In this document: in pieces, positions 5,850-24,407 of the stretch
How the letters are laid out: each line of letters starts with the position of its first letter
How positions within the stretch are numbered: the stretch's first letter is position 1
Origin: a virus
Virus record (IMG/VR): IMGVR_UViG_3300009285_002253
Coordinates: 1-25,608 of that record
Strand: one strand, 5' to 3'
Length of the DNA: 25,608 bases
Position numbers and translations under genes: made by a program
Notes under the pieces: generated by a model
What the model was told of the DNA's origin: nothing
The model's database searches: none
The model's input: the letters and a program-made list of their open reading frames with translations, nothing else

Positions 5850-8800
5850 TTACCTAATCAATTTAGTAAATGTCAGCCCTAAATGCTGTAAGGCGAATGT
5901 TGGACTTTCAGCGCTTGAATTTGCATACAGATATAATGTTGTGCCGGTTGGATATTTTATAATACCAGAACCGGCCAAAATATTTATATCGTATGCGGTA
6001 TTTGTTTTAATAGTTCCAGCAACGGTTGACATAGCCGCTTCCGAAGTGCCTAACGTCAAACTATATGTTCCGGATAGGTTGACATCGAATGATGCGGTTA
6101 GAGTAACCATATATGTACTTGAATCCGGAATTGTTATAGAGCCGGTACTACTGTCCGTTGTGAAATCACCTGCGGTAACCGTTCTCCAATTTACTATTGC
6201 GGTATTTGAACCTGCGGCGGATAAATTGGTAACTAGGCTATCGCCCGTAGAATTATCGACATAGACAGAAGCAAATGTTGTTATTGGGCTTGTCTGATTT
6301 AGATTGCAACAAGTATCCAATTCAAGAACAAGGCTATCAACTTTACTTTGCAATAAAGTTGCATTGCCTTCCAATTCAATTACTCTATTTCTTAGAGAAT
6401 CAACAGCGGAATTTAATATAACAAATATTGAATCACCAACAGAATCAATAAATGCGCGCACCCTTGCTATTTGATATTGCATTTCAATTTTGCTTATATA
6501 ATTCGTGCCGCTTATGCCGGTTGTTGATCCACCGCCGCCGCAAGAATAATTGAATACAACGGTATTGCCGTTTTCTATATACGGATCAATACCGCCGATA
6601 CAATCATTTCTGAAATATATATCGCCGCAAATAGGCATCGATTGACCATTGGGCATAATCAACCTAGCGGTGCTGCAAGCGCAGGTGTCCGATATATATA
6701 ATTGAGAAGTATATCCGCCGGATGTTTTAAATTCAATAAACATTGTTGAATCAATTCTTATTGTGTCATACGAATACAGATTTATTATTTGATCGACACA
6801 CGGTATACCCAATTGATTATTCGGCATGTGATACCAGAAAGTATCCACCATCAAAACATTATTTGAAAATGGATCATAACATATCGCCAATCTGTATTTT
6901 TCCGTATAGCAAGCGCTGCCGAAAACACCCCTTGAATGAATGTTCTTCACGCCGCATTGCAGAGTATCGCATCCGAAAAGATTCATCAATGAATCAACGG
7001 GAAACCAAATATATATATCATAGTTTGGATGATATGGCGGCCATGATACTTGGTCATCCCACATGAATTCAGAATAAATTTGAAGTATGTTGCAACTCCA
7101 ACTAAGATTGTGATATGTTACATCATTTGTTTGCGTGTTCAATGTAGCATACCGCATTGGATAATATCCGTGTTTATATGCCGGTGTACCATACGCCGCA
7201 AACGGATTTTTCAAAGTGTCTACGATATAAGGCCAAAGTAATTTCAAACTATCCAAAGTATGCAAACTCATAAATGTGTTTGGACTGGACCAAGGCTCAT
7301 TTCTTGCATACGCATCCACAAAAAATGTTTCAACGCTGTCGATCACGACATACCAAGTATTTAAAGTATTGTCGGCGGGTATTGTGTCATAACCAATAAG
7401 CGTACTGTTGATTATCGGCATCGTTATATATGTCGTGTCGAAATATCCGGGCAATCCCTGTAATATATAGGCCTTTGGGCATTTATATAAACATTTGTCA
7501 TAAGCAATCAACGTGTCGCCGATATAAGAAAAGAATGTGTCGGCATATACGCCGGTTGGAATATTGTATACCGATATGCAAACAACGCTATCTTTCTTGA
7601 CTTTTGGATCATTCGCATAAATAAGGCAATCAACTATTTCCCTTGTGCTGTCAATCCAAAGAGTATTTGTTGGAGACATATCTATCAATTGCATATACAT
7701 AAGTAAAATACTTTTTCTTATACAGCATACCGCCGTTGTATCGCATTTTGTTCCTGTCTCGCATCCTCTAAATGGATAATTCGGATCACCTTCCTTCATA
7801 TTCGCCAACCAATTGCCGGGATTATATTTCCTTATGCAAATTGTTGGGTCATAGCTAGGTTGTATCCTGCTTGTATCGCACGGCAAGCCATACATTTGCC
7901 TTTGTATCTGCCTTATATTGGACATTTGTTCGTCGGTGAATACGGCGAAACTTGTATCTTTTGAAAATATGTTATATCGTGTGCAAACCGTATCGCAAAC
8001 CGTTATCGTATCCGATGGAATCACTTGGATGGATGTTACCCTGCGGAAATATATCGGTATCGTCAAAGTATCTTCGCAGAATTCCGTTTCAGCTTCCGTT
8101 ATGCAGTCCGCCGCATCATAAACAATGGTATCGGGAACATTGACAATTCTTGTGCCGTGTGTTGTATCCGATATAACAACCAATGGCGAAACACTTAATG
8201 TGTCATTTATTATATTTAATGTTGGAATTAGAGAATCAACACCTAATTTTCTATATATCTTTATGCATCCGCTATCTTGGAAAACAAAATTTCCTTTCGC
8301 CGCGCCAAATGTTGTACTATCCCTGTGTATCCTTGCGAATATCGTATCTTTTTCAACCGACGTTGTATCGAATCCAATCAATGCAATGGAATTGCCGAAC
8401 CATGTTACCTTTATCCCGTATGCGGTTTGTATCAAGCTATCTAAAAAATCTTCCGCCAAAACGGCGGAGCTACCGATACTGTCTTTTCGTATGCTATCTT
8501 TTAGAGCTTCACCTAAATCACCCCAATTTATATAACCCCATATATAATCGCCTATGCGTCTTTTGCGTATGGAATCTTTCACAGCTTCCGAAAGTTTTTC
8601 CCATTCGACGGCACTGTCCTTTATACCTATCGTCATTAATTGCACTAAATCATTTGTGAATTTATCCGCCATGAGATTCATTTTATTGGCGCCATGAAAT
8701 ACAGCTTCCTGCTTCAAAATTCCGCCTATGTAAATATCATATAAACCATATTCCAAACTATCTTTGTAATATGTACCGGGCGAATTCACATCTTCAACCA

Positions 8801-8978
8801 AATCAACATATTTCGCCGTATCACCCCATATATACAGGTCAACATCCAAACCGGTAATCGGTATGCCATTGTCATCCCTGATTACCCTTTGGAATATTGC
8901 TTTCAATGTTGTTTGGCTACACAATTCATTGCAACCAAATAATAAAAGCAAAACGATTATTACATACATTCTTTTCAT
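5850..8978 (-). CDS. Exported cysteine-rich tail fibre-like protein with C1q-like C-terminus
   Basis: A 1042-residue protein, last of the tail module. ATG at 8978 has AGAGGAAA upstream. The N-terminus is a signal sequence, MKRMYVIIVLLLLFGC, with a possible lipobox LFGC (Cys16). Cleavage by signal peptidase I after LCS is the alternative. Residues about 22-95 resemble a prealbumin-like beta domain (DNGIPITGLDVDLY). Two related segments follow, LSEAVKDSIRK (129-139) and LGEALKDSIRK (155-165). The middle is beta-rich and unrecognised. I count 30 Cys in all, in clusters such as CDTTAVCC, suggesting disulfides. A coiled coil (about 830-895) leads to a C-terminal beta domain of about 140 residues resembling C1q/TNF jelly rolls, which often trimerise and bind receptors. 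Position suggests a receptor-binding fibre. The export signal suggests a surface adhesin instead. Confidence 0.6.
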   Translation of the reverse strand: MKRMYVIIVLLLLFGCNELCSQTTLKAIFQRVIRDDNGIPITGLDVDLYIWGDTAKYVDLVEDVNSPGTYYKDSLEYGLYDIYIGGILKQEAVFHGANKMNLMADKFTNDLVQLMTIGIKDSAVEWEKLSEAVKDSIRKRRIGDYIWGYINWGDLGEALKDSIRKDSIGSSAVLAEDFLDSLIQTAYGIKVTWFGNSIALIGFDTTSVEKDTIFARIHRDSTTFGAAKGNFVFQDSGCIKIYRKLGVDSLIPTLNIINDTLSVSPLVVISDTTHGTRIVNVPDTIVYDAADCITEAETEFCEDTLTIPIYFRRVTSIQVIPSDTITVCDTVCTRYNIFSKDTSFAVFTDEQMSNIRQIQRQMYGLPCDTSRIQPSYDPTICIRKYNPGNWLANMKEGDPNYPFRGCETGTKCDTTAVCCIRKSILLMYMQLIDMSPTNTLWIDSTREIVDCLIYANDPKVKKDSVVCISVYNIPTGVYADTFFSYIGDTLIAYDKCLYKCPKAYILQGLPGYFDTTYITMPIINSTLIGYDTIPADNTLNTWYVVIDSVETFFVDAYARNEPWSSPNTFMSLHTLDSLKLLWPYIVDTLKNPFAAYGTPAYKHGYYPMRYATLNTQTNDVTYHNLSWSCNILQIYSEFMWDDQVSWPPYHPNYDIYIWFPVDSLMNLFGCDTLQCGVKNIHSRGVFGSACYTEKYRLAICYDPFSNNVLMVDTFWYHMPNNQLGIPCVDQIINLYSYDTIRIDSTMFIEFKTSGGYTSQLYISDTCACSTARLIMPNGQSMPICGDIYFRNDCIGGIDPYIENGNTVVFNYSCGGGGSTTGISGTNYISKIEMQYQIARVRAFIDSVGDSIFVILNSAVDSLRNRVIELEGNATLLQSKVDSLVLELDTCCNLNQTSPITTFASVYVDNSTGDSLVTNLSAAGSNTAIVNWRTVTAGDFTTDSSTGSITIPDSSTYMVTLTASFDVNLSGTYSLTLGTSEAAMSTVAGTIKTNTAYDINILAGSGIIKYPTGTTLYLYANSSAESPTFALQHLGLTFTKLIR

Positions 8979-9922: not shown

Positions 9923-12900
9923 CTATATTTCGATGCCTGAAATGATTACGGATTTATCGGATTCCAATTTTGCCGATGTTGTTATAAAATCCGTTGTACT
10001 ATCTAAATCCACATCGCGCGGATTTAACAACAGATTAAACTTATCCATACATTCAATGTGGAATAGCGGCAAGAGCTTTAGGGTCTCGATAGCCAATCTG
10101 TATTTGTGGTAATATTCGTATTGCACTTCCGCGATTATTTGTGCTATGTATTTATTTTGTACTAACGGATTATCAATTTTCAATACACGTTTCATCCATC
10201 CATCGAAACCGATTTTCCTATCACCTGTATTTTTGTTAAATGGGTTTGCATATTTTACGCTGATCGCATCATAGTAATGTTTCCAGTAACCAATACCGGG
10301 AGTAGACCTTGCAACATTTTCATTAAATGATAATTGTATATTGCCATTCGTCACACCTCTGCGAGCTATCCTGATTTTCCTTTCATCGTGAATTATATAG
10401 TAATAATTCATCATCTGATTTACGAATTGCAATATGTTGCGTATGCTATCCGATTCACTAAATGCGGCAAGTTCAATTCGCGGGTAGAATTCTTTTGCAT
10501 ATTCCCATAGAATAAAATTGACATCTTTTGTTATACCAAATAAATGCCCGGTATCATTGCATGTTATCTGTGTTTGTGCTCCCCAATCTTCAACATCGAT
10601 CACGCCTAAATTATCTATTGTTATTTCATCATTTATTCTGTCGTATGTTGCGCGAAGTAACGCACTAGGTTTATCTTTATATCTAATATTTTGCGATATA
10701 AAATAAACCACATTTTCATCTTTTGCATATTTATGATTCTTGAATAATGCCGTTGTATCATATTCAAAATTATTACCTGCAATAATTGTTGTGTTCATAC
10801 CCGTTGTCGGATTTAACAAATCATATACAAAATATTGCCATTGGAATGGCGATACACCACTATCGGAAGATTTGTTAAAAAATGTGCCATGCAATGTGTC
10901 GCTATCCGCAAGGCATAACCATATAGGCATTAAATGAGATTCCGCACCTGCTGTATTTTCGTAAGAATCCCATAACACAACTTCTGTAATTCCTATTGTG
11001 TTTACTACAGCGCTACCCGATGCAAGTATCACACGTATATAATACAAACTTGCGGAACCATTAACGGAAACTTCCGCCCAATTATTCGGTATATCAAATG
11101 ACGCTATACCATTCGGAAAATTTGGATGTGTTGCATTCGGTACGGCAACCCATGCAGTACCGTTGTAATATTGTATAGCGTACACACCTGCGGGAACGTC
11201 AAATTTAATACTTCTAAACTTGTCTGAATTGCCGATATACATTGCATCCAATGGATTATTTAGCGGATAACTTGCAAGGTTGTTATCGTTATTTGCTTCC
11301 ACTGTAATATCACTATACCCGGCACCACTCCAATACATTACCGCATCCGCATTAATTATTCTGTTGCCGGATAACGCAACTTTTGTAATATATGATAACG
11401 ATACCGCATTATCCGTTGTGTATACACCTTTATCTATCCAATTTGTATGACCAAAATAAATATAATTGTTCGCTTCGTCAATTGCATTGCAAATTGGGAG
11501 CGTAGATTCATTAACATATTCAATGTCAATAAAAGAATCTCCGATAACATCATACATTCTGTAGTAATTATTTAGTGTCGGATCAACCTGCAATTTGAAT
11601 GAATAAAATTCGCCCGTGCTTTTTCTAAATGTGTTACCCTGTTGTCCGTAATCAATTTTCAATTCGAGTTTAGGTATTGGGGCACTTATGCCAGTCTGAT
11701 TCCCGCCGGTTAGTGTTCCCTGTTGCAAACAATAATATCCGGCTGAACTTACATATAATTCACCTTGTTTATCAAGATTTGGTTGTACAATATTATAATA
11801 ATTACCAAGTGAAAAAATCCATTCTGGTCTAATGAATCCAGCATGGAATAATATTGTATACAAATCCGGCATATCATACAAAAATATTGGATCATCAACA
11901 CCACTTGCGGCGTTTAATTTTACATGCAATGTTTGAGGGAATGGCACACAAATATTTTCGCCGCAATATCCGATAGTGCCATATATAGAAGTTATCTCAT
12001 ATTGCCCTATAGCCCTGAAATTTACACCACCACTTAAAGAAAGTTGTCCACCATTGCGTATTGATCTTTTCCCATCATACAAATTTGTTGCAATAAATCC
12101 CGTTCCATTTTCCAAAGTTGCTGTATCGTTGCTTTGGTCGTATGAATATATCATTGAAAAAATGGTAGCAAATTTTATATCTTTGTGTTGCACATCCAAA
12201 AATATTTTTGTGCCGTCAATCCAAATATCTTCTACCGTATATTTATATGATCCCATTGTGTACGGAATTATCTCTGTTATATACTCCCATTTCCCATCAA
12301 AATAACATCGCCACAATTCCAAACCTACCGCTATATATACATATTGACTTGTATAATCTACAACTAATGCACTAGGATTTCTCTCATAATTGTGTCGCGG
12401 AGATTTACCCCATATATTAAATGTCTTTTCGGATAACAAAAGTTTTGTATCCGATAATATTCTTTTATTGCTATAATAGAATGCTTCATTTAATGCAGAT
12501 TCCAGCAATGCGCGGACAGGGATGTTTTCATGCCACCCGCCAAACGCATAATTACCAGCTTTATCTAATTTAATTATCAATTCATCATCGGTATTTTTTC
12601 TAGTCAATAGAGATTGATTAAAATCTATTTCGATGAAGTCATTATCAATACCCCTTACTCTTATTATCCTGCGTATTTCTTTTAATTCAAGTGCACCCGT
12701 TGCGGTAACACGTTTAATTTCTATTGCATACCCTTTGTATTCAACATTACCAATTAATACCGTATTTTTTGTCCAATTTGTAGCGCTACTCCATCGTATT
12801 GTCGGATCATCTTTACTAGTAAAACCTGCTGTATTATCTACCAATCCATTTTGTATACTTGTCATAACGCTTGACATAAATGTATTGCCGCCGGTGCTAT

Positions 12901-14245
12901 AACGAAATTCTATATCCGATGCCGTAAACAACGTACCTAAATCAAATTTAATACCCCAAAATATACTATCGCTAAAGATATACAATTTATCCGTATCGGC
13001 AGCAAGTATTGCAACGCTTGTATAATCGGCATTGATTGGAACATTTGATATATCAGAAATTTCAGTAAGTGTGCCATCATCCGTTACGATAGCGAGAAAG
13101 TGTATCATAATCGCGGTAGCTGTGCCATTGTCAAAAGTTATTGTCGGGCCACCTTGATTATTAATTGCTTTCGAATCGCCATCATTTTTATCACTGTCTT
13201 TTATATTTACCCATATTTCAACATTCGAATCAGGGTAATCATTCAATCCGTTTGCATCGCCGAATTTTACTATTGCATATTCCGTACCGCCATTATCGAA
13301 TAATTGTTGCGTACCTTCGCTATTTATCGTATCCGATATTACAGCGATTTGAACCCATGCCCCATTATCCCATCTGAAATAATGCGGGTATCTATATTCC
13401 AAAATTTTGATACCGGATTTTGTACCTCCGCTAACCCGTTCAATGTCAACACCATCCAATCTTGTATTATCAAATGGTTTATAACTAATCTGTTTAATGC
13501 CAGTACTCGATTCGGAGCTTGGTTCGTATTTCAGGATATTAATACCGCCAATTTTTGGTAAATCAGTATGCGCCGTATCGATAACATTGTATGCCGGGTA
13601 TCTACCCAATTCGAATGTATGCCCGAATGCTTTTATCCTAAATGTTTTATCATACGGATTTGGCATTGTGTCCGTTAAGTCCGTTACAATACCTGCGAAA
13701 TATATTGTCCAATTGTCGCTAGACCCGACAACATACAACATATATTTAACCCAAAACACACCGTCAAAATTATTGAATAATCCGGTATCAGTTTTGTTAA
13801 AAAAATACCCATCCTTATTATCGAAAACTATTGTAATTTCTCCGCTATCGAATTCAAATAAACTAGCGCTTTCTATTTTTTGATCGACGCTTGAAATTCC
13901 GTTCAATGTGAGCTTATCGGATACAGCATATTTTTTCGCTATCGTTGCGCCAATTTCATCAACACTTAATGCGGCAGTCCCTGTTAAAACAATTTCCGTT
14001 GTGTCCGTTAATGCAGTATATGTTATCGTTGTTACCTGTCTTTCAATTTCGAATTCCGTCAAAGGCAATACTGCATAATCATTTATAATAAACAAAGTTG
14101 TAGCATCGCCAGCAACAACAACACTATTCCCTGTCGGCACATCCGTAATTAAACCGGAATATTGTTTATACAATATTACAGCATCACGAATATCTAACCC
14201 GACGTGTTTTTGTAATCGGAGTGTATTTATATTGATACTACGCAC
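9923..14245 (-). CDS. Large tail hub/central tail tip protein, 1440 aa
   Basis: The gene directly follows the tape measure and overlaps it by eight bases. There is no ATG; GTG at 14245 with AAGAGG seven bases upstream is the best start. TTG three bases earlier is possible but sits close to the ribosome site. The N-terminal 220 residues contain a beta-rich tail-protein segment (FEFDSGEITIVFDNKDGYFF). The middle has repeated beta domains, including one resembling discoidin-type modules (YYNGTAWVAVPN). The last 230 residues resemble the hub domain of Tal/gp27-like proteins: a helix around SIRNILQFVNQMM, then a segment with RIARRG, and an IDNPLV motif followed by helices. The gene's length and place suggest that it closes the tail tube and contacts the cell. 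No peptidase or lysozyme domain was recognised. Confidence 0.75.
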   Translation of the reverse strand: MRSININTLRLQKHVGLDIRDAVILYKQYSGLITDVPTGNSVVVAGDATTLFIINDYAVLPLTEFEIERQVTTITYTALTDTTEIVLTGTAALSVDEIGATIAKKYAVSDKLTLNGISSVDQKIESASLFEFDSGEITIVFDNKDGYFFNKTDTGLFNNFDGVFWVKYMLYVVGSSDNWTIYFAGIVTDLTDTMPNPYDKTFRIKAFGHTFELGRYPAYNVIDTAHTDLPKIGGINILKYEPSSESSTGIKQISYKPFDNTRLDGVDIERVSGGTKSGIKILEYRYPHYFRWDNGAWVQIAVISDTINSEGTQQLFDNGGTEYAIVKFGDANGLNDYPDSNVEIWVNIKDSDKNDGDSKAINNQGGPTITFDNGTATAIMIHFLAIVTDDGTLTEISDISNVPINADYTSVAILAADTDKLYIFSDSIFWGIKFDLGTLFTASDIEFRYSTGGNTFMSSVMTSIQNGLVDNTAGFTSKDDPTIRWSSATNWTKNTVLIGNVEYKGYAIEIKRVTATGALELKEIRRIIRVRGIDNDFIEIDFNQSLLTRKNTDDELIIKLDKAGNYAFGGWHENIPVRALLESALNEAFYYSNKRILSDTKLLLSEKTFNIWGKSPRHNYERNPSALVVDYTSQYVYIAVGLELWRCYFDGKWEYITEIIPYTMGSYKYTVEDIWIDGTKIFLDVQHKDIKFATIFSMIYSYDQSNDTATLENGTGFIATNLYDGKRSIRNGGQLSLSGGVNFRAIGQYEITSIYGTIGYCGENICVPFPQTLHVKLNAASGVDDPIFLYDMPDLYTILFHAGFIRPEWIFSLGNYYNIVQPNLDKQGELYVSSAGYYCLQQGTLTGGNQTGISAPIPKLELKIDYGQQGNTFRKSTGEFYSFKLQVDPTLNNYYRMYDVIGDSFIDIEYVNESTLPICNAIDEANNYIYFGHTNWIDKGVYTTDNAVSLSYITKVALSGNRIINADAVMYWSGAGYSDITVEANNDNNLASYPLNNPLDAMYIGNSDKFRSIKFDVPAGVYAIQYYNGTAWVAVPNATHPNFPNGIASFDIPNNWAEVSVNGSASLYYIRVILASGSAVVNTIGITEVVLWDSYENTAGAESHLMPIWLCLADSDTLHGTFFNKSSDSGVSPFQWQYFVYDLLNPTTGMNTTIIAGNNFEYDTTALFKNHKYAKDENVVYFISQNIRYKDKPSALLRATYDRINDEITIDNLGVIDVEDWGAQTQITCNDTGHLFGITKDVNFILWEYAKEFYPRIELAAFSESDSIRNILQFVNQMMNYYYIIHDERKIRIARRGVTNGNIQLSFNENVARSTPGIGYWKHYYDAISVKYANPFNKNTGDRKIGFDGWMKRVLKIDNPLVQNKYIAQIIAEVQYEYYHKYRLAIETLKLLPLFHIECMDKFNLLLNPRDVDLDSTTDFITTSAKLESDKSVIISGIEI

Positions 14246-17200
14246 CAATATACCTCTTATTTGAATTATTTATTGCAGGTACAATATGTTTATCGAACAC
14301 ATTATCCCAATATTTTTGATCGTCAACAACGGCACCATTTATATTTAGGTTTATTACGGGTGCTGTCGTAGAATTCCTGCTGAAACTATCGCTAATTCCT
14401 ACAACGGAATTATTACCGACACCCGCCGTAACAACACCTCTTGTAGTCCCTTCGCCCTTATGCAATTTCGCTGTGCCGGAATCTATGATACTGCCGCCGC
14501 CATTCAAACTTTGCATAATTCTTTTTGGTATAACTACTGTTCCTTTTGGTGTATAGTGTACGCCAGTTTTGGTAATTGGAGTAATCCCACTTGCTCCCAT
14601 TGCGACTTGTTTGTAAAATGCACTATTGCGCCTTGTGACTTGCGCGGCACCTTCCCCGCTATGCAAATTTTGTGCGCCACTTGTTCGTGTTTCGGAACCT
14701 ACAGCGCTACTAAATAAACTTGCGCTAGGTAAAACAGAACCGACACCGCCACTTATTACACTTGTGAGTAAACTGATTATTTTTGATTGTATAAAATCAG
14801 TAACCATTTTTGCTACCATTTGCCTAAATGATTTACCAATATCAGAGAATATATCTTTTATTCTAATCGATGCCAAGTCACCTGATTCCACCCATGAATC
14901 CATGGCACCATCGAATCCCGACATTATCACACCGGAAAAATTGTCTACCCAAAACTTTGTATCGGCACTCATTTCTTCTTCAATTGCTTTTTTATGTTCG
15001 CGCATATCGCGCATAGCTTCCAAATATTCAATACTTGTAGCGCCGTGCATTGCCGCAATTGTATCAAGTTTTGTTTGTAGTAATGCAGTCATTTCAGCAG
15101 CTTGTGCTTGCCAGTCTGACATATTATCTACAGCTTTTGCTTCTTCCATTTTCGCGGTAATTATCGCTATACTATCTTCCAAACCTTTCAATATTTTGTT
15201 ATCATCGGAATTAAACAATTCGTCAATCTCTTTTACCCTACCCATTAATGCCATATATTCAGCTTCGAATGCCAACCCATTAGCGCGTAGCGCATCCATT
15301 TTCAATACGAGCATAGCGCGAAATTGATTTAATTCATCTTTGTTTATTTGTTCTCCACTCTTTAACATGTTGAATTGTTTATCTATTGCTTTATCTATAA
15401 ATTCTTTTTCTATATCATCCATTTCTTTTTTGTGCCGCATCGCTTCCGTTTCTTTTTCGTTGTTGAATATTTGTTCAACTTTTGATAATTCAACATTACC
15501 TTCCGTTGCTGTTTTAATTCGCTCTTGATTTGCTTTTGTAATCTGTGCCATGTTCAATGCATTTTCAGCTATCGCAATGGCCTTGCGTTTTTCAAGTGTT
15601 TCGTTGCCTAGAGCTTTCAATCTTTCTAATTCTGACTTTGCAGCATCTTCACCAATTTTATTTGCAGCATCCGCTATCTGTCGTTGCTCTTCCCTTTGTT
15701 TGTCGGCTTGCGCTTTTCTTTCAGCGGCAGCTTCGGCATTCGCTTTTTTTCTTGCTTCATCAATTCTTGCCTGTTCTTCAATTTCTTCATCCGTTAATGG
15801 CACTTCACCACCATCTTTTTTCGCATCGGGTTTATTGTTTATTTCTTTTAATTTTGTTTGAGATTCTTCCAATGTTTGCAAGCTCTGTGCGTATGTATTC
15901 GCGGATACGGCAGCTTCCTCATATTTCGCGGCAATTTGAGACCATATTGCAAGTTCCATTTGAGCACCGCCCTTATCACTGTCTCTTTTCCCTTCGGCTA
16001 TATCAAATTGCACTTTTCCCGCCATTTCAGATGCTTTTGCAGCCATATCATTTAATTCATCAATAACCTGCATTTTCCCGCTTCTTATATCGCTAATTAA
16101 ATTCGGAAACATATCTTTTATTTCAAAAGTTTTTGAACCCAAAATCTTTTCACTCGATTGTATAGGCACCTTTGCAAATTTATCGAATACATATTGCAAT
16201 CTACTTATACCGCCTTTCACTTTTGCAATATTCGATTCCATGTTATCAGTTATTATACCTTCTAATTCATCCATTGATTCCCGCATACTTTTGTTTGCGG
16301 AAGTTATATTCATTTGCATTTCGGAGCGGGCAAGTGTTTTTTGCCTTTCACTTAATTTACCTAATTCTTGTTCAGCTTTTTTACCGGCAAGTGCAATTTG
16401 ATCTACAGCACTTGCATAATCCGATGTTTTGCTAATTATATCAGGATACTTCTGTCTCATTTCATCATGAATTGTTTGCATTCTTTTTTCTTGTTCTTCA
16501 CTTCTATTCTGTGTAGCGGCAAGTGTTTTATATTCATCCGCCATATCCTTGATAGACTTTTGATATTTAACTTGTGTATTCAATGATTCTTTTTGCCGTT
16601 GTATACCTTTGGCCATTGCTTCCATTCTTCTATCTTCGGCACCCATTAGCCACATTGTACCTGCCGCAAGTGCCGCAATAGCCGCAATGGTTAAACCGAC
16701 CGGGCTAAGCAATGCGGACATTGCAGTACCTAATACACCAACACCTGCCGTTATAGCGGGTAGCATACCCAACAATAAAGACAATGGCCCAACAAACCCT
16801 AATACGGCAGCAGCTATTACAGCTATTGCGGCGATTGCCGTTTTAATGCCCTTCGGCATAGCGTTAAACCATTGTACGACAGATTGTATAGTTGCGATTA
16901 CACTACGCAAAACAGGCACTAGCGCCGTACCGAATTGTATAGCGGTCTCCTGTATAGCGGATTTCAAAATTTTCATCGCACCTTCGAAAGTGTCAACCTG
17001 CATCGCGGCCATTGACGTTGCTTTATTCGTACCGGTAATTTGATCTTCGAATTTTTTGAAACCTTCTGCACCTGCATTCAACAAAACTTTCATTGCGGGT
17101 GCCGCGCGTTTATCGAATATCGTAGCAAGATCGCCCATTGCTTTTTTATTACCCATTCCAGCTTTGGACAATTTATCTACGATACTAATTAAATCATTGT

Positions 17201-17993
17201 TTACCGGGCTAACATCTTCCGCCGTTAAACCATATTTTCTTAATGCTTCTTCCGCCATTTGTGTAGGTTTCGCAAGAGCTAATAATGACTGACGTAGATT
17301 TGTACCTGCCTGACTTCCATCGATACCGGCATTATATAACAAACTTGCGGCGGCGGTTGCCTGTTCAATACTTATACCAAATGCATTTGCAACAGGCCCG
17401 ACATACTTCATTGTTTCGCCTAACTTCAACATCGTTGCTTGTGATCCTGAAATGGATGCTGCAAACAAATTGCTAACCCTGTCAGCTTCCTCCGCTTTTA
17501 ATTGGAATGCCGATAAATTAGATACAACAATTCTTGTGGTTTCAGCTAAATCATATTGTGTAGCGGCAGCTAAATCGAGCGTACCTTTTAATGCTCCCAT
17601 AGTTTGCTCTACATTCAAACCCGCCGATGCCAAATAATACATTGCATCGGCAGCTTCACTAGCAGAGAATACGGAAGTCTCGCCCATCTTTCTTGCATAG
17701 TTAGTCAAGATTTGCATTTCGGCAGCAGTAGCACCCATTACACTACCCGCATTAGCCATTGATTGTTCAAATTGGCCAAAGGTTTTCATTACCATATAAC
17801 CAAGCCCAACAATCGATGCACTAATACCCGTTGCTATTTTACCAAACTTCTTTAATTCGGCAGAAGATGATTTTATTTCAGCAACACTATTTTGTATAAT
17901 GTTTTTCGTTTCGCCAAACGCTTTACGCAATTCGTTAAAATTAGCGCCAATGTTTACGAATACTCCAAATGTTTTGCTACCACCTGCGCCCAT
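14238..17993 (-). CDS. Tail tape measure protein (TP901 core family)
   Basis: A 1251-residue protein with the TP901-type tape measure core at about 80-365, including phrases typical of the family (GETSVFSASEAADAMYYLA, AGIDGSQAGTNLRQ, IFDKRAAPAM). A hydrophobic alpha-helical stretch lies at about 384-450, probably the part inserted in the host membrane during DNA ejection. A long charged coiled-coil region follows (about 455-960), with clusters rich in Glu, Lys and Arg. ATG overlaps the upstream stop by one base (TAATG), and AGGAG lies about nine bases upstream. The protein fixes tail length and occupies the tail lumen. At about 0.15 nm per residue, a known rule for siphoviruses, the tail would be roughly 185 nm. 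Chaperones encoded just upstream keep it soluble. Confidence 0.95.
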   Translation of the reverse strand: MGAGGSKTFGVFVNIGANFNELRKAFGETKNIIQNSVAEIKSSSAELKKFGKIATGISASIVGLGYMVMKTFGQFEQSMANAGSVMGATAAEMQILTNYARKMGETSVFSASEAADAMYYLASAGLNVEQTMGALKGTLDLAAATQYDLAETTRIVVSNLSAFQLKAEEADRVSNLFAASISGSQATMLKLGETMKYVGPVANAFGISIEQATAAASLLYNAGIDGSQAGTNLRQSLLALAKPTQMAEEALRKYGLTAEDVSPVNNDLISIVDKLSKAGMGNKKAMGDLATIFDKRAAPAMKVLLNAGAEGFKKFEDQITGTNKATSMAAMQVDTFEGAMKILKSAIQETAIQFGTALVPVLRSVIATIQSVVQWFNAMPKGIKTAIAAIAVIAAAVLGFVGPLSLLLGMLPAITAGVGVLGTAMSALLSPVGLTIAAIAALAAGTMWLMGAEDRRMEAMAKGIQRQKESLNTQVKYQKSIKDMADEYKTLAATQNRSEEQEKRMQTIHDEMRQKYPDIISKTSDYASAVDQIALAGKKAEQELGKLSERQKTLARSEMQMNITSANKSMRESMDELEGIITDNMESNIAKVKGGISRLQYVFDKFAKVPIQSSEKILGSKTFEIKDMFPNLISDIRSGKMQVIDELNDMAAKASEMAGKVQFDIAEGKRDSDKGGAQMELAIWSQIAAKYEEAAVSANTYAQSLQTLEESQTKLKEINNKPDAKKDGGEVPLTDEEIEEQARIDEARKKANAEAAAERKAQADKQREEQRQIADAANKIGEDAAKSELERLKALGNETLEKRKAIAIAENALNMAQITKANQERIKTATEGNVELSKVEQIFNNEKETEAMRHKKEMDDIEKEFIDKAIDKQFNMLKSGEQINKDELNQFRAMLVLKMDALRANGLAFEAEYMALMGRVKEIDELFNSDDNKILKGLEDSIAIITAKMEEAKAVDNMSDWQAQAAEMTALLQTKLDTIAAMHGATSIEYLEAMRDMREHKKAIEEEMSADTKFWVDNFSGVIMSGFDGAMDSWVESGDLASIRIKDIFSDIGKSFRQMVAKMVTDFIQSKIISLLTSVISGGVGSVLPSASLFSSAVGSETRTSGAQNLHSGEGAAQVTRRNSAFYKQVAMGASGITPITKTGVHYTPKGTVVIPKRIMQSLNGGGSIIDSGTAKLHKGEGTTRGVVTAGVGNNSVVGISDSFSRNSTTAPVINLNINGAVVDDQKYWDNVFDKHIVPAINNSNKRYIGA

Positions 17994-19922: not shown

Positions 19923-20336
19923 TTATCCGAAAATTGTGAATAACTTCGCGGTTGTGATATTGAAAATCTGTTGTATCTCTGCCTGTTTATCTTCAAGCGC
20001 ATCATCCATAAATGGCCTAGCTTCCATGTATACAGTACCTTCGTGTACATATATACCATAAAAAACAGTTGCGCCAGTACCTACCCTGCCAGATGCGAAA
20101 TTATCATTACCTAATGGCATTATTTCGTGTGTTACAGATTGACGCAATACACCTGTATCGAATGGTGGATGATAATAGCCACCCGATCTAATCAATTCTT
20201 TTGCACGACCTTCGACAATTATACAAGTTGATTTAATTGCAACCTGAAAAACATTTGGCGTTTGTTCAATGATTTTAGTTACTGTCCTAATCAATTTATC
20301 GGCACCAACCAATGATATACTCATTCCACTAAACAT
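19923..20336 (-). CDS. HK97 gp10-like head-tail joining protein
   Basis: The start is placed at ATG 20336, preceded by GAAGGA with a seven-base gap. This gives 137 residues and an eight-base overlap with the upstream gene. A longer reading from 20390 has no ribosome site, and ATG at 20324 is a close alternative. The family hallmark is clear in PPFDTGVLRQSVTHE and FYGIYVHEGT, followed by ARPFMDDAL, as in HK97 gp10 and relatives ('P.dTG.Lr.S', 'Y..yvEfGT', 'PFl.pAl'). The protein belongs to the neck between portal and tail in siphoviruses. Confidence 0.85.
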   Translation of the reverse strand: MFSGMSISLVGADKLIRTVTKIIEQTPNVFQVAIKSTCIIVEGRAKELIRSGGYYHPPFDTGVLRQSVTHEIMPLGNDNFASGRVGTGATVFYGIYVHEGTVYMEARPFMDDALEDKQAEIQQIFNITTAKLFTIFG

Positions 20337-20682
20337 CTGACATTCCTTCCACTCTGCTGCAATACATTTGGTAATGATTCGTTGTAACACCGCCCGGATT
20401 TTTTTCTACAAAATCAATTTTGTAATAAACATTAGATTTTGTTCTTATATAATATCCATTTTCTACCGTTGCGCTTGACAAAGAAAAAATCAAATGTGTA
20501 GACGTTGCATAAATACCGGAACCAGCAACAAATTGATTACCTTTATTTTGTGTTATTCGTACATAAATATCCGATTGCACAACTGATTCTATTTTTATTT
20601 TCGCACCTGTAGAAGTTCTCGTATTTGTGTTGTATGTAACAACATCCACAAGAGTATTCAAATATTTTTCTATGCTAGTCAT
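20329..20682 (-). CDS. Head-tail stopper/joining protein (SPP1 gp16-like)
   Basis: A 117-residue protein whose ATG overlaps the preceding stop by four bases (ATGA), so it is translated by coupling. It lies between a connector and an HK97 gp10-like gene, the standard place for the stopper protein that plugs the portal until the tail joins. The C-terminal part is beta-rich (YYIRTKSNVYYKIDFVEK followed by NHYQMYCSRVE), as in stopper proteins ('g..Y.I.....' then a final strand). Length also fits (about 100-120 residues). There is no membrane segment. Family membership is inferred from order and fold pattern rather than from strict motifs. Confidence 0.65.
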   Translation of the reverse strand: MTSIEKYLNTLVDVVTYNTNTRTSTGAKIKIESVVQSDIYVRITQNKGNQFVAGSGIYATSTHLIFSLSSATVENGYYIRTKSNVYYKIDFVEKNPGGVTTNHYQMYCSRVEGMSDV

Positions 20683-21323
20683 ACGGAAATCGCATATTTG
20701 CGTTTCAAAGTTTTCAATTGCATGGATAACATTGTATCAAACACATTACCCATTGCTGATATTCCTAAATCGTATGATTCGGAATAATCACCTATCTTTA
20801 CAGATTTCAAATTGCTTGCCGTTGTACCGATCATACCCGGATTTTTCAAAAGTTGCGCCATAATCGCATTTGCAAAATTTTGTATATCATCCGGCACAGT
20901 TGCATATCCGTATGTATATTCAACTTTTACGGCATTTAAACCAACTGCGAAATAACTATTGAAAATTGTGGTGTAATCAGTTTCATACGCGCTAATGGCG
21001 TTATTTAATTCTATGATACCTGCTTCCAAATCAACAATGTAATCCGTAGCGGCAAACAACACAGGTGTTACATTATTGTCATTGTATAGCGCCGTTATTT
21101 CTATGATCGGGCAATTATCCAATATAATAACGCTTTGGAATGATTTTTTTATCGTTATATATTCAGTTATCGAATGTTGATTAAATCCTTTATGATTTAT
21201 CGCATTGTCGATACATGAATTAACAAACCGCTTTACAGCATCGGATATGGCAGATGCTTCAATAGCACCATCCATAAGGTTTGCAACCTCTGTAACGCTG
21301 CCATAAAAAAAATCTTGTTCCAT
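20679..21323 (-). CDS. Head-tail connector/adaptor protein (gp6/gp15-like)
   Basis: A 214-residue protein with the features of phage adaptor proteins that dock to the portal. An N-terminal helical region of about 45 residues is followed by a beta part, with a segment around FNQHSITEYI and strands IILDNCPIIEITALYND. Then come VKVEYTYGYATVPDDIQNF and a helix. 'Y..GYa.vP.di..A' is the common signature in HK97 gp6 and SPP1 gp15 relatives. The C-terminal helix is longer than usual. ATG at 21323 has AAGGTG five bases upstream, the same ribosome site as two other genes in this region. The gene starts the head-tail module in the transcription direction. Confidence 0.8.
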   Translation of the reverse strand: MEQDFFYGSVTEVANLMDGAIEASAISDAVKRFVNSCIDNAINHKGFNQHSITEYITIKKSFQSVIILDNCPIIEITALYNDNNVTPVLFAATDYIVDLEAGIIELNNAISAYETDYTTIFNSYFAVGLNAVKVEYTYGYATVPDDIQNFANAIMAQLLKNPGMIGTTASNLKSVKIGDYSESYDLGISAMGNVFDTMLSMQLKTLKRKYAISV

Positions 21324-21371: not shown

Positions 21372-21728
21372 TTATCGCTCACGTATTGTATCAGGGTTCA
21401 ATATTCTCAAAGAATCTTGTTCAGCTTTTATTCTCGCAGCTTCCCTTGTCTTTACTGTTTCAATGATCGGGTTTACTATCGCCCTTTCAGAAGTATTCAT
21501 TTTTTCGATAGCATCAATATTCCTGCGCTTGACAACTTCGGCAGCTTCGGATAAATGATTTTTTGTTGCTTCCAAAAGTTTGTCATCCAACCATTTTTGA
21601 TAATCAACACCATGCGCTTGTAACATTATTGATTGCTGCGCGGTTGTCAGTGTTACAGATACCGATTGCGCATTCATATTTATAACACACATGATAAGCA
21701 AAACAAATGTAATTAGTAGTGTTTTCAT
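21372..21728 (-). CDS. Exported small helical protein with signal peptide
   Basis: A 118-residue protein with a classic Sec signal peptide (MKTLLITFVLLIMCVINMNA, cut before Gln21), the pattern common in Bacteroidota. The mature part of 98 residues is helical and charged, with many Lys, Glu and Arg (YQKWLDDKLLEATKNHLSE, REAARIKAEQDSLRILN). It contains no Cys. ATG has AAGGA about ten bases upstream. It sits between the 61-residue membrane peptide and the head-tail connector, so it is in the same operon as virion genes. An exported helical protein could be a spanin-like lysis protein, a superinfection exclusion factor or a periplasmic chaperone, but there is no motif to decide. Confidence 0.7.
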   Translation of the reverse strand: MKTLLITFVLLIMCVINMNAQSVSVTLTTAQQSIMLQAHGVDYQKWLDDKLLEATKNHLSEAAEVVKRRNIDAIEKMNTSERAIVNPIIETVKTREAARIKAEQDSLRILNPDTIRER

Positions 21729-21770
21729 TTTTGTGTATCCTTTTATTTGTATGTTTGTATATTGAAACGT

Positions 21771-21956
21771 TTAGAAATATTTGTTTATCTCTAATTCTGC
21801 GCTATAAGGAAAGTCCATGGTGAACGCTCCCGCCGTTTGCGCCTGCGCGGTTTGACCGAAAGGAGCTTGCGCTCCGAATATCGCGGCTACGATAAGGACA
21901 AATAGGCCGATCCATTTCACGGCGGTCCAAAGTGTTTTTTTATCTGCTGGTGTCAT
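21771..21956 (-). CDS. Small single-span membrane protein, 61 aa
   Basis: The N-terminal basic segment (MTPADKKTLWTAVKW) is followed by a single membrane span of about 18 residues (IGLFVLIVAAIFGAQAPF) and a polar C-terminal tail of about 28 residues. The positive-inside rule suggests N-in, C-out. The base composition is higher in GC than in the flanking genes, like the tip of the fibre gene just upstream, so the two may have been acquired together. ATG at 21956 is preceded by AAGGAAATGACGCC; the spacing is rather long. Candidate roles are small holin or fibre-linked membrane factor; neither is shown by sequence. Confidence 0.65.
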   Translation of the reverse strand: MTPADKKTLWTAVKWIGLFVLIVAAIFGAQAPFGQTAQAQTAGAFTMDFPYSAELEINKYF

Positions 21957-22500
21957 GGCGTCATTTCCTTATTCTGATGTATGATAGCTTTCGTCCGTTG
22001 TCTCCGTAAATCGTGAGCGTGTTCGCCGCGAAGACATTGCTCCACGGGTGTATCGTGGGCGCTGTCGTGCCGCCGATGTACGATACCGCGATCACGTCCG
22101 TAGGCAGTACTCCCGTTACAGTCACGGTGATGGAGTCGCCAGCGTCCGCCGTAACTTGAGCCGCGAGCGTTTGCCCGTTTGGATTAAGTACGCCCGAGGT
22201 GTCGTCTATGGCCTCGGTGTACACAAGAGGCGTTTTCACAGCCACTTTTGCCTTGATCGTGGAATCACTTATGAGGTTACCGGCAAGTTCCAGTCTGTTT
22301 GCCGGATCAATTATACCAATTCCGAACGCCCCCCACGGAGTCAAATGCATATCCGTAACGCTCCCCCCTACGCCGTGTTTCCAGTATTGGCCGGATAGAG
22401 AGTTAAACGATAACTTGTTGCTAGTCACGTATTGCATACCCACGCTCGTGCTGGTGCCAACATAGCTGCTCGAAAGCAGGAACGTCCCTGCATCAAATAT
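21790..22500. other. GC-rich island covering fibre tip and 61-aa gene
   Basis: Counting by hand, bases 22021-22200 are about 61% G+C and 21841-21900 about 58%, against about 35% at 23041-23100. The shift covers roughly the last 180 codons of the fibre gene and the whole 61-residue gene. It fades towards 22500 on one side and ends near 21790 on the other. This is typical of horizontal replacement of a receptor-binding segment. Confidence 0.75.
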
Positions 22501-24255
22501 AGTTGCATTCATATTTGCCGCGACAATATTTCCTGCAACGTACAACTCACTCAACATTGTCACTGGTTTATATATAGTTATCGAATCTCTTTTAAGCGTA
22601 GCACCCGGCGCAAATAAGATACTATCTTGATTTATATACACGCTGCCATTGACCGACAAACTATATGCGGGCAGGTCATAATTGATACCAAAATTACCTT
22701 TCTCACTGAATGTTAAATCATATGAGCCATTATTTACTTTAAAAAATGCTCTATTATTCAAATAACCATTTCTCTTTTCGGTATCACCTACATAAAGACT
22801 GGTGCTGCCGCTAGAAATGTCATATGGATTATCTGAATAAATTGCCGTGTAATTGCCGGAATCTGCGGGATTGGTGCGGTAAAAATACATTTGCGTATAA
22901 CTGGGCGCTTTCAAGTTCATATATGTTATCGAATTAAATGCCGCAGGATCAAATGATAAAAATTCATAGGCATCTTTTCTGAAACTAAATTCACTGCCTA
23001 TTTTTTTCAATGCAAAAGTTGACCCCAATTTCAATGAATCAATTGCTATATATTTTGCGGTTACCGTACTATCAATTTTCAAGTTGCCCGCAATTTCAGT
23101 TTTATTCGCAGGGTTCAATACTCCAATACCTAATTTACCATCTTTTGTTAATGTCACATCATCAGCATCGCCCGCTATATTATTCGCCGATAATATAACT
23201 TTTCTCGCACCCAATTCTGAACCAAACAAACCCACTCCTCCATTAGGCGCAGCAGCATCACTACCAACAATATCAAGACGTGTTGCCGTTGAATATAGAA
23301 AATTACCATCCCATCCGTCACCCAACATCATAACAAAAAATGAATTTTTTCTTGCAAAATCTATTTGTTCATTGGTCAATTGCATTTGTGTATGCCAAGG
23401 AGTAACGAAGTCTTTTATATTAACACGGTAACTACCATCGGCACCAGACATTGTTACCACCGAATATGCTGTGTCGGGCACTTCCGCAAAACCTATTTGC
23501 GGCAATACTATATAATCAAACATACCGCCATTCGCAGATACCCAACCATTGGCATCAATTCTAAATGCCAAAGAATCATCAACATTTTTTGGTACTATCA
23601 CATCATAATTGCCATCTGTATACCTATTCCAACTGCCAGAGTTTGCAATCTCTGTTTCCAATGTATCAATTTTCAAAAGTAAATATCTAGCAATTGAATC
23701 TGCTATAAAAATAGAATCACCATACGCATGGCTTAACGCTGCTGACAATGAAACAAGATCAAGTGTTATTCTTTTTGGAAATGTTGTAGAATTGATTGTA
23801 AAGTATTGCGATAATTCCAATGAATCAAATGCATAAGTATTGCCAAACGAATCTTTAATCTGCAATACCGGCACAGCTATTATATATTGTGTAGCAAGTG
23901 CCGTTGCTCTTGTATATGATTCAAGCGACATTGTTGCGACATTGCCTATAATAACATCAACGGGTTTTTCAAAGCCCAACACATCCGGTCCTTGCAGTGT
24001 TACCGTTGAATTGCGCCAAACCTTAAAGCGTATATACCCATTCGTGTTGCTTGTATCGCATCTTTTTGGATATGCAATAAGGCCATTCGATAATTTTGTT
24101 TTAACAACACACAATGCCGCATTTCTTGCCGGTTGCAAATCTTGGCCATACACATAGCCATATAATATGCATGAATCTGCGGGATTCAATTGCGCGTATC
24201 CGTTATTAAACAAAAAAACGAATAACAAAAAATATATATAACTGATTTTATTCAA
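21961..24255 (-). CDS. Exported tail fibre-like protein, 764 aa
   Basis: The best start is TTG at 24255, since AGGTG lies five bases upstream, exactly as for two neighbouring genes. It yields a complete signal peptide (MNKISYIYFLLFVFLFNNGYA, cut before Gln22). After it comes a domain (about 30-115) resembling carboxypeptidase-regulatory or prealbumin folds (ILYGYVYGQDLQPARNAAL). Helices near 185-205 follow. The C-terminal half has three related modules with G..GIG...PAN...E.AGN, at about 373-391, 520-538 (weaker) and 642-660, a pattern common in phage fibres and metagenomic fibre proteins. Copies one and three also share DST..AK. The last 180 codons are GC-rich. Location inside the virion operon suggests a receptor-binding fibre; the signal peptide is unexpected. 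Confidence 0.65.
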   Translation of the reverse strand: MNKISYIYFLLFVFLFNNGYAQLNPADSCILYGYVYGQDLQPARNAALCVVKTKLSNGLIAYPKRCDTSNTNGYIRFKVWRNSTVTLQGPDVLGFEKPVDVIIGNVATMSLESYTRATALATQYIIAVPVLQIKDSFGNTYAFDSLELSQYFTINSTTFPKRITLDLVSLSAALSHAYGDSIFIADSIARYLLLKIDTLETEIANSGSWNRYTDGNYDVIVPKNVDDSLAFRIDANGWVSANGGMFDYIVLPQIGFAEVPDTAYSVVTMSGADGSYRVNIKDFVTPWHTQMQLTNEQIDFARKNSFFVMMLGDGWDGNFLYSTATRLDIVGSDAAAPNGGVGLFGSELGARKVILSANNIAGDADDVTLTKDGKLGIGVLNPANKTEIAGNLKIDSTVTAKYIAIDSLKLGSTFALKKIGSEFSFRKDAYEFLSFDPAAFNSITYMNLKAPSYTQMYFYRTNPADSGNYTAIYSDNPYDISSGSTSLYVGDTEKRNGYLNNRAFFKVNNGSYDLTFSEKGNFGINYDLPAYSLSVNGSVYINQDSILFAPGATLKRDSITIYKPVTMLSELYVAGNIVAANMNATIFDAGTFLLSSSYVGTSTSVGMQYVTSNKLSFNSLSGQYWKHGVGGSVTDMHLTPWGAFGIGIIDPANRLELAGNLISDSTIKAKVAVKTPLVYTEAIDDTSGVLNPNGQTLAAQVTADAGDSITVTVTGVLPTDVIAVSYIGGTTAPTIHPWSNVFAANTLTIYGDNGRKLSYIRIRK

Positions 24256-24299: not shown

Positions 24300-24407
24300 T
24301 TACCGCTTCTTACTGCGCCAAATAAAATAAATACATGCAACGATTACAAAAAATCCACCTACATACATTGCTGCCGTTGTTAATGTATTCACTGTTGTTT
24401 GTTCCAT
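24300..24407 (-). CDS. Small single-span membrane peptide, 35 aa
   Basis: ATG at 24407 has AAGGTG five bases upstream; a longer reading from 24542 overlaps the previous gene without a ribosome site. The product is MEQTTVNTLTTAAMYV, then a single membrane span (about GGFFVIVACIYFIW), then a short basic tail RSKKR. The tail predicts N-out, C-in topology. At 35 residues it is among the smallest credible phage membrane proteins and could be a pinholin-type or accessory protein, but small size forbids confident assignment. It immediately precedes the fibre gene, which itself carries an export signal. Confidence 0.6.
   Translation of the reverse strand: MEQTTVNTLTTAAMYVGGFFVIVACIYFIWRSKKR

Follow-up and report, generated by a model that had tools for sequence, protein, structure and literature searches.

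Tailed phages are, in the textbook view, completed in the cytoplasm. In Bacteroidota, more than half of signal peptidase I substrates have Gln directly after the cleavage site, a preference named the "Q-rule" (PMC5837995), and a study of Porphyromonas phages described five Q-rule proteins of unknown function for which outer-membrane modification was proposed (PMC10367356). Benler et al. examined DGR target proteins of phages and detected signal peptides on none of them (PMC6199706). Our searches recovered no papers on exported virion fibres of tailed phages; subscription literature lay mostly outside these searches, and the novelty of the arrangement described here is accordingly provisional.

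Among isolated phages, the nearest parallels are found in records of Cellulophaga phages, part of a small, chosen and non-random sample in which virion status is read from the record annotation ("experimental MS/MS proteomics") and not from the underlying data. The consecutive gp101 and gp102 of phi19:1 are signal-bearing and both annotated as MS/MS virion proteins; phi10:1 has five consecutive signal-bearing genes (gp91-95) with MS/MS notes on gp91-94; and gp85-87 of phi18:3 have Q-rule signals and MS/MS notes, giving nine MS/MS-annotated Q-rule proteins across the three phages. Virion preparations can carry co-purified envelope proteins, so such detection does not prove that a signal was cut or that export came first. 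The Cellulophaga cassettes consist of two to five consecutive Q-rule proteins, and similar cassettes, in three families, are present in phi13:2, phi46:3, phi18:3, phi19:3, phi10:1, Nekkels_1 and Ingeline_1. Proteins of the gp85 type (score 11.84) and phi10:1 gp95 (11.6) fall just below the threshold of the scorer described below, yet a cut before Gln is plain in both. Relatives of gp101 in phi19:1, phi13:2, phi10:1 and Ingeline differ in their N-termini and each keeps a signal, which suggests selection for the signal itself. The stretch from the fibre cassette to the endolysin, or just past the endolysin, holds small genes for membrane or signal-bearing proteins in phi18:3 (L078, 4393-6953) and phi10:1 (L077, 2485-4243). 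The scorer found no fibre-sized signal-bearing virion gene in phi18:1, phi12:1, 11b, B40-8 or P12024S; a tape-measure membrane segment flagged in phi18:1 and phi12:1 was discarded as a false positive.

Predicted export signals in the virion module

The window, by which we mean the whole 25.6-kb virus record analysed here, has its plausible genes all on the minus strand, and 24 genes were scored. Those recognised by profile or tblastn are the head-tail adaptor, Neck1 and the tape measure. The features used below are as follows.

5850-8978, minus strand: F1042, a 1042-residue fibre-like protein with predicted export (signal score 14.6)
8916-8978, minus strand: predicted F1042 signal peptide, MKRMYVIIVLLLLFGCNELCS, then Q; alternative lipobox LFG↓C16 (↓, cut)
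9923-14248, minus strand: 1441-residue tail protein without a signal
14238-17993, minus strand: tape measure protein, the query for finding relatives
19923-20390, minus strand: tail completion (Neck1) protein (phrog_5, E = 8.2e-20)
20679-21323, minus strand: head-tail adaptor, directly downstream of S118 (PHROG phrog_442, E = 2.6e-9)
21372-21728, minus strand: S118, an open reading frame of 118 residues with a predicted Sec signal cut before Gln21
21669-21728, minus strand: predicted S118 signal peptide, MKTLLITFVLLIMCVINMNA, then Q; cut placed by inspection
21771-21956, minus strand: T61, 61 residues; its single hydrophobic segment may be cut at FGA↓Q or may stay uncleaved as an anchor
21801-22570: the most GC-rich 770 bases of the window (GC 0.52 against a mean of 0.37, about 4.5 sd)
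21961-24255, minus strand: F764, an open reading frame for a 764-residue fibre-like protein with a TTG start and a predicted Sec signal cut before Gln22 (signal score 12.8)
F764 residues 376, 522 and 644: three GIG/GIN repeats of fibre type
24193-24255, minus strand: predicted F764 signal peptide, (M)NKISYIYFLLFVFLFNNGYA, then cut before Q
24300-24407, minus strand: T35, a 35-residue single-span membrane protein upstream of F764, with an AGGTGC box

A first-pass annotation had placed F764 and S118 at these coordinates, in agreement with our ORF calls. For F764, the TTG at 24255 is preceded by an AGGTGC box at the same spacing as in T35 and the neck gene, which supports this start and hence the placement. 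T61, between S118 and F764, had been overlooked, as had the GC-rich 3' end of F764. On the minus strand, equally spaced AGGTGC boxes stand before the starts at 24407 (T35), 24255 (F764) and 21323 (head-tail adaptor); the boxes before other late genes resemble GGAG or AAAGGA.

Export signals were sought with a custom scorer (threshold 12) requiring that the n-region be non-negative, that a hydrophobic core be present and that the residue at the cut be small. It flagged 4 of the 24 genes (F1042, F764, S118 and T61) and no others, each with the three regions (n, h and c) expected of a Sec signal, and so bears out the Sec signals proposed from the first reading for F764 (before Gln22), S118 (before Gln21) and F1042. 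F764, T61 and S118 form a run of three consecutive signal-bearing genes. Among controls, 1 of 162 internal Met positions was flagged, lying in the tape-measure membrane segment, as were 3 of 65 spurious plus-strand ORFs; the chance of flagging 4 genes in 24 is about 2e-5 at the internal-Met rate and about 2% at the spurious-ORF rate. Judged from sequence, the reality of the export signals in the four genes is well supported.

The predicted cuts are GYA↓Q22 in F764, LCS↓Q22 in F1042, MNA↓Q21 in S118 and FGA↓Q30 in T61; for S118 the scorer preferred a cut two residues past the Gln21 site, and Met at -3 is atypical. The LFG↓C16 lipobox of F1042 is borderline, Phe at -2 being unusual, and makes it possible that signal peptidase II processes this protein instead; F764 and S118 have no lipobox. 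Gln at +1 earns a small bonus from the scorer, so that the agreement on Gln is suggestive and no independent test, and the four signals are consistent with the Q-rule rather than proof of it. That all four proteins could be cut before Gln points to a Bacteroidota host, which we consider likely; these cuts are the sole pointer to host identity.

The fibre-like proteins

The genes for F764 and F1042 lie inside the virion module, as expected of caudovirus tail fibres. F764 shows a weak similarity to cyanophage tail fibre and structural proteins (42.9% over 49 residues, E = 6e-3), and fibre-type domains in either protein gave no Pfam or PHROG profile match of weight. Neither has a Pfam or NCBIfam match, the type IX sorting domain included. 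No homologues of F764, F1042 or S118 were found in viral contigs or phage records, nor any of the 1441-residue tail protein or a 299-residue protein in viral contigs, and F764 had no match in the whole records of 30 relatives. A search for solved structures likewise gave none. A tblastn search of phage records with S118 and F1042 gave no credible match, those to F1042 being Klebsiella phage RNA polymerases with E at least 0.4. S118 has no significant family match; DUF1366 (E = 0.0056, below cut-off) and the PorU N-terminus (E = 0.026, in a match that begins in the signal) were set aside. A helicase search returned distant helicases only (25-26%), and a tape-measure search of genome contigs two distant loci, in Alkaliphilus and a Sulfurimonas MAG.

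It had been proposed that both large proteins begin, after the signal, with a similar prealbumin-like (transthyretin-like) domain. We found no sequence similarity between the two N-domains, and neither has a Pfam match up to E = 10. Aligning F764 residues 22-141 with F1042 residues 22-131 gave a local score of 24.0 against a shuffle mean of 26.1 (sd 4.6), a score reached by 1402 of 2000 shuffles; single-sequence AlphaFold2 models were uninformative (mean pLDDT 36 and 33). Common ancestry of these N-domains is unsupported by their sequences.

Mature F1042 contains 28 Cys in 1021 residues (2.74%), against none in the tape measure and 8 (0.56%) in the 1441-residue tail protein, a content suited to an oxidising compartment; F764 has 3. 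An even number of Cys is found in 11 of 13 signal-bearing proteins with at least two, which is suggestive only. Cys enrichment was rejected as a general mark of signal-bearing fibres: it holds for F1042, for the loci L015 and L016 described below and for Bdellovibrio phage phi1422, and not for the Cellulophaga examples, which have 0-3 Cys.

The GC-rich block at 21801-22570 covers the 3' end of F764 (its last ~190 residues) together with T61, and probably marks a fibre tip that was exchanged along with the adjoining gene, as would suit a receptor-binding role. Recent exchange would also be expected if the genes were host-derived surface genes (morons) residing in the virion operon and unrelated to the particle, and GIG-type repeats such as those of F764 are known from Bacteroidota surface proteins too. 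We regard this origin as highly improbable, given that the genes occupy a virion operon on one strand and share the AGGTGC start box with the neck gene, that signal-bearing genes have a similar position in relatives, and that the GC shift is limited to the fibre tip and T61.

Uncultured relatives and the small signal-bearing genes

Searching with the conserved part of the tape measure identified 36 viral loci, several of which have a virion module with large signal-bearing proteins that are unrelated in sequence to F764 and F1042. In L038, a 724-residue protein with NTAVG repeats and with tail-spike and virion PHROG matches precedes two small membrane genes, after which come neck genes; in L043, a 345-residue signal-bearing protein is followed by one of 107 residues; and in L042, an 818-residue protein with a sub-threshold tail-collar match (E = 0.0039) is followed by a signal-bearing protein of 162 residues. 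L015 encodes signal-bearing proteins of 501 and 580 residues, and L016 one of 370. L038 and L043 share the window's arrangement, in which a fibre-like gene with a signal precedes small genes for membrane or signal-bearing proteins and the group lies upstream of neck or tail genes. They differ from it in that their fibre sequences are unrelated and that their kinship rests chiefly on the tape measure, to which L038 adds a weak adaptor match.

Across 34 loci, 21 of 599 genes were flagged. Adjacent flagged pairs numbered 6 against 1.23 expected (0 of 5000 permutations), a somewhat optimistic figure in that the window supplies two of the six pairs and a few loci share a record or related records. 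The suggestion made from the first reading, that long fibres and a small exported partner make up a system, is upheld by these pairs as a recurring kind of arrangement, and finds no support as regards a shared prealbumin-like N-domain.

In the related uncultured phages L041/L025 (3745-4101) and L045 (10083-10538), a signal-bearing protein of 118-151 residues stands directly before neck genes, and its N-terminal part is conserved (53% over 47 residues). The closest tape-measure relative is the single record G021, the source of L043 and L036, whose virion module includes a long series of genes that, judged by eye from their sequences, resemble those for glycosyltransferases, nucleotidyltransferases and epimerases.

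The mature part of S118 comprises 98 residues and is charged, probably helical and without Cys. S118 and T61 may aid the fibre, in the manner of fibre chaperones, or may have a part in lysis. Typical of lysis groups are small proteins, membrane-bound or exported, whose periplasmic portion is charged and helical, a type that S118, T61 and T35 would fit as a spanin- and holin-like set adjoining the fibre gene by chance. Small signal-bearing lipoproteins follow the endolysins of phi18:1 and Flavobacterium phage 11b, and neither an endolysin nor any other lysis gene was recognised in the window, which may be a partial contig. No endolysin adjoins S118, T61 or T35, however, as it would an inner-membrane/outer-membrane spanin pair; S118 lacks a lipobox and looks cleavable, and small signal-bearing proteins recur beside fibre genes in L042 and L043. 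A lysis group is for these reasons an unlikely explanation.

Proposed export, maturation and attachment of the fibres

We propose that a tailed phage with a Bacteroidota host would use F764 and F1042 as receptor-binding or accessory fibres and send them through Sec. Signal peptidase I would cut both before Gln, which a host enzyme would then cyclise to pyroglutamate, and both would take on their fold in the periplasm, with disulphides in the case of F1042. Small partners in that compartment, S118 and perhaps also T61, would aid fibre folding or solubility in a role for which fibre chaperones offer an analogy. The particle itself would be built in the cytoplasm and receive its fibres at lysis or later, when particles meet the periplasm. 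We put the probability of this whole model, export via Sec with periplasmic maturation and attachment at or after lysis, at roughly 0.45-0.5; that the signals work and that the large proteins are fibres, taken jointly, is probable from the sequences. We infer that this phage exports its fibres, that S118 is their partner and that they attach at lysis or later; the putative signals, their clustering, their operon position and the annotated MS/MS detection of comparable Cellulophaga proteins are read more directly from sequences and records. Secretion, periplasmic maturation and lysis-time attachment would be the simplest fit to the signals and to the virion annotations of the analogues.

Virion association would need no post-lysis assembly if the proteins were never exported and their hydrophobic N-termini were instead retained as an anchor or trimerisation segment docking the fibre on the particle, and the DGR targets without signal peptides indicate that ligand-binding proteins of phages are not normally exported (PMC6199706). 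Yet the segments show all three signal-peptide regions, unrelated proteins repeatedly have Gln just past the cut, the signal is kept where N-termini were replaced, and F1042 is rich in Cys, all of which makes retention distinctly unlikely. A second possibility accepts export and has the fibres acting mainly at the cell surface or on a periplasm-side receptor, as display or receptor-masking proteins that are not mainly virion parts: they might block superinfection, keep progeny off debris or, in the case of the pectate-lyase-like relatives, loosen host polysaccharide. The signals would bring the proteins to the envelope, where the receptor is, pectate lyases do occur among the analogues, and outer-membrane modification is what the Porphyromonas study proposes for its Q-rule phage proteins (PMC10367356). 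Against masking stand the annotation of comparable proteins as MS/MS-detected in virions, the position of the genes inside the virion module, and the lack of any known outer-membrane route for F764 and F1042, given that neither matches Pfam or NCBIfam (type IX sorting domain included); we think it rather unlikely.

If Sec export followed by attachment at lysis is correct, host secretion, signal-peptidase and perhaps oxidation machinery would be used by some phages for their receptor-binding parts, and adsorption specificity would be set outside the cytoplasm. Annotation and laboratory expression of Bacteroidota phage fibres would then need to heed such signals, since proteins expressed in the cytoplasm may misfold. 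More tentatively, and with some doubt, completion of the virion outside the cytoplasm, through a Sec-secreted cassette of fibres and partners, might hold for many tailed phages that infect Bacteroidota or certain other diderms. The question is directly testable in culturable Cellulophaga phages.

Comparison with known systems

The collagen-repeat tail fibres phi18:1 gp52 and phi12:1 gp50 resemble F764 in being encoded by a large fibre gene among neck genes and differ from it in not being flagged as signal-bearing; the neck-position fibre of phi18:1, having no signal, indicates that export is not required of Bacteroidota phage fibres. In Bdellovibrio phage phi1422, gp68 (614 residues, with a signal and 8 mature Cys) directly follows the tail fibre gene gp67, and a small signal-bearing protein, gp75, lies nearby, as in the window. 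Unlike the window, phi1422 has a host of another phylum and annotated baseplate wedge and spike genes, which indicate a different tail type, and no similarity was found between the two. The Porphyromonas gingivalis phages ("Nixviridae") share with the window phage proteins whose Bacteroidota signal peptidase I signals expose Gln, whereas their Q-rule proteins are described as proposed outer-membrane modifiers, with no mention of a place in fibres or virions. The fibre/pectate-lyase cassettes of Cellulophaga phages phi10:1, phi18:3 and phi19:1 resemble the window in that large fibre-like genes stand consecutively within the virion module and their products have a Sec signal cut before Gln. Their proteins have few Cys and no sequence similarity to F764 or F1042, and the cassettes of phi19:1 and phi10:1 are at the tail end of the module and not before the neck genes. 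No homologues having been detected for F764, F1042 and S118, their tie to the Cellulophaga proteins is one of kind and not of descent.
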